DNA of 64,000 bases from Alphaproteobacteria bacterium (GTDB lineage: Bacteria > Pseudomonadota > Alphaproteobacteria > Rhizobiales > GCA-2746425), in contig JANSWZ010000007.1 in NCBI GenBank assembly GCA_024743215.1, forward strand, positions 124,001-188,000. Reading direction: 5' to 3'. The notes beneath the pieces are model-generated. The model ran no database searches. It was not told the DNA's origin and was given only the letters and a program-made list of their open reading frames with translations. The translations under genes and the position numbers were made by a program. Within the stretch, counting starts at the first letter, position 1; each line of letters starts with the position of its first letter. This document shows, piece after piece, positions 51,151 through 53,853 of this stretch.

Positions 51151-52182
51151 ATGAGTATTTTTTCTTTGACACGTCGGGTAATTCTGTCTGGCGCAGCTGC
51201 GGCCATTGCATCGATCGGTCTGTCCGGTACAGCATTTGCCGAAGACCATATCAGTTTTGAAGGTGAAACTGTTACAATCGTCAGCTTTGGCGCTCCGGGC
51301 TCACCTCCCGATGTCTGGTATCGTTCCCTTGCGCCTTATCTGAAAAGACATCTGCCCGGAAATCCGGATATTGATTTCATCAACAAGCCTGGCGCTGGCT
51401 CTATGATATCTGCCAATTACACCGCGCAAGCTGTCAAGCCGGACGGGTTTACAGTTGGAACGTTCAATGCAATCGCGATGACGAAGGCTGCCAAAGGCGA
51501 CCCAAGCGCAAAATTCAATTTGCGTGAAATGCAAATTCTGGGTGCCAACCAGTTGACCCGTGTAATCCCGGTGAAACTCGATGGCGTTTCAAACATCGAC
51601 GAACTGATAGCACGTGAGGGTGAACTCATCATCGGTATGGAATCTGATGCCACACCTTACTTCTCCAGTTTCTTCAAACTGGCGGGCATTGATGGTCGCA
51701 TCATTTCATCCTATCAGCGCTTCCCGGACACGCTTCAGGCTTTCCGCTCTGGCGAAGTCGACGCCATGCCCATGTCCAACATCGAATGGCTGACATTTGG
51801 TCCTGATCTGTCTCAGAACGGTGTCGAAGCCATCTGGCAGTTCGGATACATCAAGGATGGTGAAGTTACCGCCGTCGAAAAACCCGACGTGCCAACGGGT
51901 CATGACGTCATTCGACGCATCAACCCCGATGCGGTCGGAGGAGACGACTGGAACGAGATGCTTGTGGCGGTTGCCGGGCAATCCGTGTCCAACGAAATCT
52001 GGGCACCAGCAGGAACTCCCCCTGAATATGCCGCTGTCTGGGCGCAAGCCTTCTTTGACGCCGTCAACGATCCGGAATTCCAGGCTGAACATGAGAAAGC
52101 CTATGGCATTCCGGCAAGCTGGACTGATGCTGCAACGGCCCGCGCCATTGTGGACAGCGTACTCGAAGTATATGGCAACTGA
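51151..52182 (+). CDS. Tripartite tricarboxylate transporter substrate-binding protein (TctC), system 1
   Basis: 343 residues, periplasmic. Signal peptide MSIFSLTRRVILSGAAAAIA to TAFA-ED, with a Tat-like double arginine. The Bug/TctC fold is indicated by VTIVSFGAPGSPPDVWYRSLAPYLKRHL near 40 and NKPGAGSMISANYTA near 78. Many Bug proteins bind carboxylates. GGGAGG precedes ATG 51151. A large structured element follows the stop, before the TctA gene. It should deliver the substrate that the sulfatase/crotonase pathway degrades. Confidence 0.9.
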   Translation: MSIFSLTRRVILSGAAAAIASIGLSGTAFAEDHISFEGETVTIVSFGAPGSPPDVWYRSLAPYLKRHLPGNPDIDFINKPGAGSMISANYTAQAVKPDGFTVGTFNAIAMTKAAKGDPSAKFNLREMQILGANQLTRVIPVKLDGVSNIDELIAREGELIIGMESDATPYFSSFFKLAGIDGRIISSYQRFPDTLQAFRSGEVDAMPMSNIEWLTFGPDLSQNGVEAIWQFGYIKDGEVTAVEKPDVPTGHDVIRRINPDAVGGDDWNEMLVAVAGQSVSNEIWAPAGTPPEYAAVWAQAFFDAVNDPEFQAEHEKAYGIPASWTDAATARAIVDSVLEVYGN

Positions 52183-52190
52183 TACCAGAC

Positions 52191-52261
52191 TGGCCGGAAT
52201 TTGAGGCAACTCAAGGTCTGAACCCAATTCGGAGATTGGGTTCAGACCTAAATTCCGGCCA
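52191..52261 (+). ncRNA. Three-way-junction-like RNA element between tctC and tctA
   Basis: An outer 12-bp stem P1 pairs TGGCCGGAATTT (52191-52202) with AAATTCCGGCCA (52250-52261). Inside it are two hairpins. P2 is GAG-GCAA-CTC (52203-52212), a GNRA-type tetraloop that can extend by two pairs. P3 is a perfect 15-bp stem (52214-52228 / 52235-52249) with loop TCGGAG. No U-run follows, so it is not a standard terminator. It lies nine bases past the TctC stop and 47 before the TctA start. It may stabilise the binding-protein message or act as a regulatory junction; function is inferred. Confidence 0.7.
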
Positions 52262-52265
52262 TTCG

Positions 52266-52287
52266 CATTGGTCAACCACATTGGTCA
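52266..52287 (+). repeat. 9-base direct repeat before tctA
   Basis: CATTGGTCA occurs at 52266-52274 and 52279-52287, a 13-base period, between the junction element and the TctA ribosome site GGGGAGG. Its meaning is unclear. Confidence 0.4.
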
Positions 52288-52308
52288 GTCTTACGGGGAG
52301 GACGTATC

Positions 52309-53853
52309 ATGGATGAAATGACGATCATTTTTTCGGCATTCTTGAATGGCATGGGTATTGTATTCACAGTGCCCGTGTTTTCCGCAATGATGATCGGCAT
52401 CGTGGCAGGCATGATTGTCGGATTGATCCCCGGCCTTGGTGGCCTGGTTGCACACATTTTGCTGATACCGTTTGCCCTCCAATTGGGCGACCCGCTGGCC
52501 GCCATTGCAATGTTGTTGGGTGTCTATGCGGTCACATCGCAAACCGACTCCATTCCCGCGGTCATGCTGGGCGTTCCGGGTACCGCCGCAGCGCTTGCCA
52601 CATCGCTCGATGGCTATCCCATGGCGAAACGCGGTGAAGCCGGACGGGCACTGTCCGCCTCATATTTCGCCAGTATTTTCGGCACGCTCGTGGCAACCGT
52701 GATTTTCATTCTGTTCCTGCCATTGCTGCGAGCACTGGTAACAAAATTCTCTTCTCCTGAATTCTTCATGATGGTTGTGCTGGGCCTTGTCATGGCAGCA
52801 AGCCTGTCCGGGCGCTCACAAGCACGCGGCCTGTTGATGGCGGGTCTTGGCCTGATCCTGTCCACTGTCGGGCAGGCACCCGGTACAGGCGATCCCCGCT
52901 TCATCGGGCCTTTTCTTTATCTATGGGAAGGCGTGCCGATTATTCCGGTTCTTCTCGGCCTGTTCGGTGTGCCGGAAATCATTGATCTGGCAGCCCGTAA
53001 CAGAAGCATTGCAACCTCGGCACCTGTTAAAAAAGTGTCCGGTCTCTGGTTAGGCATGGTGGACTGTGTGAAAGACTGGTGGCTGATCTTGCGCTGCTCG
53101 GTCATCGGCGTTGTAACCGGCTTTATTCCAGGCCTTGGCGGCACTGTGGCCGAATGGATGTGCTACGCCAACGCGGTCGCGTCCGACAAGGACAAGGACT
53201 CATTCGGCAAGGGCAATGTACGGGGCATCATCGCACCGGAAACCGGAACAGCTGCCCATCTGCCCGGGGCCGTCATTCCGACCGTTGCCTTTGGTGTACC
53301 GGGCAATCCACCTATGGCGGTTCTGCTGGGTGTTTTCGTTATTCTGGGCGTACGTCCCGGCCAGGAAATGCTGACTTACAAGCTCGATGAAACCTTCATG
53401 ATGGTCAACGTCATCACGGTCGGCAACATTATTGCAGCAGCCCTTTGTCTGGTCTTCCAGAAATACCTCGTTAAACTATGCTATGTCCGCGCCAGCCTGA
53501 TGGTGCCATTCATACTGGCCGCCATGGTGATCGGAGCCGGTTTCTCACGCCTCTCCCTTGGAGACATCGCGTTTTTCGCCGGTGCAGGCATTGCAGGTTA
53601 TGTCTTCAAGCATCTGGACTGGCCGCGTGTGCCATTGGTTATGGGCCTGATTCTGGGCGGCATTGCAGAACCCTATTTCTTCGCCTCTATCGACCGCTAC
53701 GGCATCAGCTGGCTCTATGCCCGCCCCATCGTATTGGTGCTGGAAGTCATGATCATCTTCATGTTGTTCTCCACTCCGATCAAGGCGTTTGCTGCGCGGT
53801 TGTGGAAATCTGGTGTCAGATCGGAAGGGTCAAAACATGGCGATAACACCTGA
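52309..53853 (+). CDS. Tripartite tricarboxylate transporter large permease (TctA), system 1
   Basis: 514 residues and about 11-12 membrane spans. Family signatures are IVGLIPGLGGLVAHILLIPF near residue 40, GVPGTAAALATSLDGYPMAKRGEAGRAL near 85 and GFIPGLGGTVAEWMCYANA near 272. It uses an ion gradient to import the TctC ligand. GGGGAGG precedes ATG 52309. It overlaps TctB by 17 bases. Confidence 0.95.
   Translation: MDEMTIIFSAFLNGMGIVFTVPVFSAMMIGIVAGMIVGLIPGLGGLVAHILLIPFALQLGDPLAAIAMLLGVYAVTSQTDSIPAVMLGVPGTAAALATSLDGYPMAKRGEAGRALSASYFASIFGTLVATVIFILFLPLLRALVTKFSSPEFFMMVVLGLVMAASLSGRSQARGLLMAGLGLILSTVGQAPGTGDPRFIGPFLYLWEGVPIIPVLLGLFGVPEIIDLAARNRSIATSAPVKKVSGLWLGMVDCVKDWWLILRCSVIGVVTGFIPGLGGTVAEWMCYANAVASDKDKDSFGKGNVRGIIAPETGTAAHLPGAVIPTVAFGVPGNPPMAVLLGVFVILGVRPGQEMLTYKLDETFMMVNVITVGNIIAAALCLVFQKYLVKLCYVRASLMVPFILAAMVIGAGFSRLSLGDIAFFAGAGIAGYVFKHLDWPRVPLVMGLILGGIAEPYFFASIDRYGISWLYARPIVLVLEVMIIFMLFSTPIKAFAARLWKSGVRSEGSKHGDNT

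Follow-up and report, generated by a model that had tools for sequence, protein, structure and literature searches.

Genes and fold of the tctC-tctA gap

The window, by which we mean the whole 64,000-nt stretch of alphaproteobacterial DNA analysed, carries a tctC-like gene followed on the same strand by tctA (Table 1). The stop codon of the first ends at position 52182 and the ATG of the second lies at 52309, leaving the gap of 126 bases in which a preliminary description of this DNA had placed a 71-nt structured RNA. The tctC-like product matched Pfam TctC at E 5.9e-4 with 19.9 bits, which does not reach the cut-off of 27, and by its sequence it is best classed as a divergent TctC member. Between 52100 and 52400, no terminator-like site (a stem followed by a T run) was found on either strand, in agreement with the earlier remark that no U-run follows the fold, and Rfam gave no match at E ≤ 1 across 51900-52600. 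Immediately 5' of tctA lies a promoter-like site (52282-52310) that matches 9 of 12 consensus bases; two sites of that grade occurred in 301 bases, compared with a mean of 0.3 in shuffles.

Table 1 Features in and around the tctC-tctA gap (positions within the window).
Feature	Position	Strand	Basis
tctC-like gene, divergent; tripartite tricarboxylate transporter solute-binding protein	51151-52182	+	343-aa ORF; Pfam TctC
P1 5' arm, host hairpin (12 bases; 11 pairs at minimum energy)	52191-52202	+	Fold
P2, TGAG-GCAA-CTCA: upper stem of host hairpin and GNRA loop	52202-52213	+	Fold; stacks on P1 after excision of P3
Left flank TCAA, possible decayed target copy	52211-52214	+	Sibling copies favour CTAG/TTAG
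P3, very likely inserted 34-bp palindrome corresponding to both ends of a ~269-bp MITE	52215-52248	+	Family search, nine-row alignment, ends of L014
Right flank TAA, possible decayed target copy	52249-52251	+	Flank reading
P1 3' arm, host hairpin	52250-52261	+	Fold
tctA, membrane subunit	52309-53853	+	514-aa ORF; Pfam TctA E 3.4e-115

The 71-mer at 52191-52261 folds at -47.0 kcal/mol, well below the energies of 200 shuffles (mean -18.73, sd 3.23; z -8.75), of which 0 were as good, and the fold is retained within the entire 126-base gap (-57.2, z -6.80). Its minimum-energy structure consists of P1 with 11 pairs (12 if T52202 is assigned to P1), P2 with 4 pairs and a GCAA loop, and P3 with 16 pairs, 15 of them Watson-Crick and one G-U, which meet at a junction with one unpaired base. 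The sequence is as first described, namely a 12-bp closing stem around a GCAA hairpin and a perfect 15-bp hairpin. Seven perfect inverted repeats with arms of 10 or more and loops of 3-14 occur in the window, and P3, with an arm of 15, is the longest. It speaks against a special GNRA arm that bases 52191-52214, which hold P2, folded no better than shuffles when taken alone (-4.1, z -0.66).

So stable a fold, with a GNRA loop and almost no unpaired bases, would suit a selected three-way junction that arose and was kept as a unit, either as a processing/stability element or as a small RNA. Against that reading stand the empty Rfam search and the only related gap that we found. Searches with the TctC protein returned the window's own genome alone, both at E ≤ 1e-40 in 385 genomes of the class and at E ≤ 1e-60 in the five genomes of the family, all of which belong to a single genus in the searched collection. 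A scan of genome contigs yielded L013 as the sole relative of the gene pair, with a TctC 65% identical to that of the window and slightly under the Pfam cut-off, and with a clear TctA match. The L013 gap contains stems (z -2.37) and lacks the three-way junction; it cannot be aligned with the window gap, and this relative is too distant to show the empty site of the window. On thin data, this one gap points against a selected junction, since absence of the pairing from related tctC-tctA gaps had been named as grounds for refuting it.

P3 and a dispersed repeat family

When 120 bases around the site were searched against the window's own genome, the matches were the site itself, its other strand and a 30-base stretch on contig C13, which proved to be terminal in an element of 269 bases whose ends are inverted repeats. 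Three 269-bp copies are present in this genome, 100, 96 (contig C12) and 87% (contig C15) identical to the query, among 36 matches in total at E ≤ 0.1. Their ends read TAGGGTCTGAAC.. and ..CAGACCCTAG, and we took these elements, putatively non-coding on a reading of their sequence, for MITEs. If the left end of the full copy L014, as far as base 20-23, is fused directly to the right end, the product differs at 2 of 34 positions from the 34-mer that forms P3. The joint falls in a short run shared by the two, which would fit an internal deletion of the MITE at a short repeat.

The end pattern (at most 3 mismatches) occurs at 28 sites in this genome, the window site included, and at 88 sites across the five genomes of the genus (28, 6, 5, 37 and 12); the reversed pattern used as a control gave 0 in each. 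With as many as 5 mismatches allowed, the window contains no further copy. Among 297 genomes of the order, 10 matched the MITE at E ≤ 1e-6, namely the five of the genus, one of which (G002) did so by partial matches only, and five others, in which 39-101 bases were matched. Six loci in the latter have inverted ends by eye; these are TAGGGTCAG-like except in L048, where they diverge more. These loci (L047, L048, L049, L050, L051 and L055) come from other families of the order and span some 250-290 bases with a core that resembles the genus MITE. Together they appear to make up one widespread, structured mini-transposon family, present in all five genus genomes searched and represented by remoter relatives in other parts of the order. 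The plasmid collection contained no match to the genus MITE, and four of its records matched the distant relative from L055. Two mir-6790 matches that Rfam returned in L015 scored 31.3 and 24.9 against a gathering threshold of 78 and were taken as chance. A literature search returned no title or abstract beginning that names the repeat, which does not in itself prove that it is unpublished.

Non-coding sequence, inverted ends, intergenic dispersal and, possibly, short target copies are features that the window element shares with bacterial MITEs and their truncated forms, such as Correia, ERIC and the QMITE of Coxiella. According to a review, truncated QMITE copies resemble palindromic repeats (PMC10969869). 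The window element differs from these elements in its sequence, in its length of only 34 bp, in having both ends joined and in that its parent transposase was not found.

Short copies, flanks and empty sites

We read 74 of the 88 end-pattern sites (28 in the window's own genome and 46 in the others) and scored 21 as short copies, twelve of which are 34 bp long; L069, L074, L075 and L102 measure 39 bp. L129 in G003, scored as two 'solo' sites, looks by eye like a single 26-base palindrome with the same ends (GGTCTGAACTCAATTGAGTCCAGACC). Nine 34-bp copies, namely the window copy, L059, L063, L076 and L079 from the same genome, L105, L112 and L122 from G003, and L130 from G004, aligned without gaps at a mean column identity of 90%. 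Left out were L082, L101 and L111 (34 bp long, their right ends carrying 4-5 mismatches) as well as L108, L119, L131 and L137 (other lengths, 4-5 mismatches). In the nine rows, 94.4% of cells are paired (4 of 500 shuffles as high), four pairs are changed on both sides (6 of 500) and the covariation score is 0.206 (1 of 500). These statistics are not evidence of RNA function, because terminal repeats read by a transposase would give the same. P3 by itself is a dispersed element that is found elsewhere without P1 or P2, which led us to reject the selected junction as the main reading.

For an empty-site test, we looked in the genus for the flanks of four short sibling copies. G003 and G002 both lack the C4 copy (L086) and show clean empty sites, and a C13 copy (L090) is missing from G003, whose empty site is CTAG as against CTAG..CGAG, with one change, in the filled state. 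Of the remaining two, L093 on C12 seems to be partly present in G003; for L096, the other C13 copy, there seems to be a remnant in G002, and the flank differs in G003 and G004. The empty sites at L086 and L090 therefore mark at least two sibling copies as insertions. L130 lies between two CTAG copies and L105 between TTAG and CTAA, most other short copies have less clean flanks, and the window copy, between TCAA and TAAA, has no clean target duplication. We infer that the window copy also arrived by insertion, through a transposase acting in trans on its ends, at CTAG/TTAG-like targets.

MITEs often outlive their parent transposon, and in the window's own genome we saw no full element with the MITE ends and no parent transposase in a search with PF01609. 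Two related PF01609 insertion sequences of that genome, L139 on C5 and L140 on C3, each have one TGA stop in the matched stretch. Their inverted ends, (C/T)TAGGTCATGT, begin (C/T)TAGGTC. Elements of the IS5 family target YTAR, which the CTAG and TTAG flanks fit. On account of these ends and flanks, our best guess is that an IS5-like enzyme mobilized the element in trans; the remainder of the L139 and L140 ends is unlike the MITE ends, so that any relationship between them is a guess.

The probable host hairpin and its possible role

Excision of 37 bases (the 34-mer plus TAA) leaves TGGCCGGAATTTGAG-GCAA-CTCAAATTCCGGCCA, a perfect 15-bp hairpin of -27.0 kcal/mol. With a 2-base model, one bulge remains (-23.2), and with CTTAAATTCC as the target the hairpin pairs throughout (-24.8); the latter would fit a CTAG/TTAG-type target with later changes. 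Before insertion, the 3' arm would have read CTCAAATTCCGGCCA or CTTAAATTCCGGCCA. P1 and P2 without P3 are one plain, normal intercistronic stem. We regard it as very likely that P3 is a MITE-derived 34-bp palindrome, the joined ends of the ~269-bp element, and that it was inserted into an ordinary intercistronic hairpin, within its 3' arm; the fold at 52191-52261 is probably a composite rather than one selected junction. Because the inserted element is itself a near-perfect inverted repeat, the transcript forms a three-way junction in which hardly any base is unpaired, and the host stem is unbroken because the pairing of P1 and P2 persists to both sides of the insert. The good shuffle score came out in favour of the first reading, but nested palindromes explain it equally well. 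With P3 dispersed on its own and P1 and P2 reduced to a plain hairpin after its excision, we now consider a junction or small RNA selected as a unit, as initially proposed, highly improbable. A striking, near-perfect multi-arm RNA fold can arise from a palindrome nested in a palindrome, which is a trap for structure-based RNA discovery.

The order of events could also have been different, in that P1 and P3 once formed one hairpin of ~27 pairs and the 11-base segment with P2 (GAGGCAACTCA) was added later. P1 would then either flank the element or belong to a hairpin whose top contains it. P1 (12 pairs) stacks equally well on P3 (15 pairs) and on P2, and excising P2 with part of P3 gives 14 pairs as compared with 15. 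We kept this history as a rival because the upper four pairs of the host hairpin rest on little sequence; an empty site reading CTCAAATTCC or CTTAAATTCC would be incompatible with it. It is nevertheless very unlikely, as the ends of P3 are exactly those of the sibling copies and searches with the gap sequence gave no other copy containing P1. Insertion of P3 into a P1-P2 hairpin remains our preferred reading. We do not claim that the short element prefers hairpins in general: among 14 short copies tested after excision, z fell below -3 only in the window and L059 and lay between -1.1 and 2.0 at the other 12.

Intercistronic stems behind binding-protein genes, for example between malE and malF, raise the share of binding protein. 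The host hairpin has the same place after a binding-protein gene and is likewise a strong stem without a T run; it differs in being interrupted by an inserted palindrome, and its function is proposed by analogy. Acting as a barrier to 3'-to-5' decay or as a processing point, it could keep the tctC message more abundant than that of tctA, with a corresponding excess of TctC over TctA protein. Whether it does protect or tune the tctC message we regard as about evenly balanced. The added arm may be tolerated or may slightly strengthen the host hairpin. By analogy with Correia elements, which according to the same review are cut by RNase III in messages (PMC10969869), the long perfect P3 arm could also attract that enzyme.

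Another short copy of the same genome, the C4 copy (L086), lies between genes for TctC (E 2.7e-58) and TctB (E 4e-12), where it follows a hairpin by 1-2 bases and is present only in this genome. Its position and that of the window copy, both directly 3' of tctC-type genes, would suit a protein-binding operator for tct genes. We give this idea next to no credence: the palindrome has the sequence of the MITE ends, the C4 copy is missing from this tct gap in relatives, and several other copies, in a non-systematic reading, have no tct gene in their flanking bases. It is also unlikely that the 34-bp joined-end form is itself mobile, which would place it among the smallest bacterial transposable elements, and that its insertion in or beside tct intercistronic hairpins was co-opted to tune transporter stoichiometry. 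Repeated internal deletion of inserted 269-bp copies at short repeats is the alternative to such a mobile form. The two tct gaps are a natural pair for asking if inserted palindromes alter message stability. The first suggestion of a processing or stability element, which is not supported for the junction as such, may hold for the host hairpin; in the L086 gap, the hairpin is kept in two relatives without the copy. Compared by eye in the three genomes, its fourth pair reads G-U, A-U and G-C and its sixth G-U, G-C and G-C, which lends slight support to the pairing, as there are three sequences and one double change.
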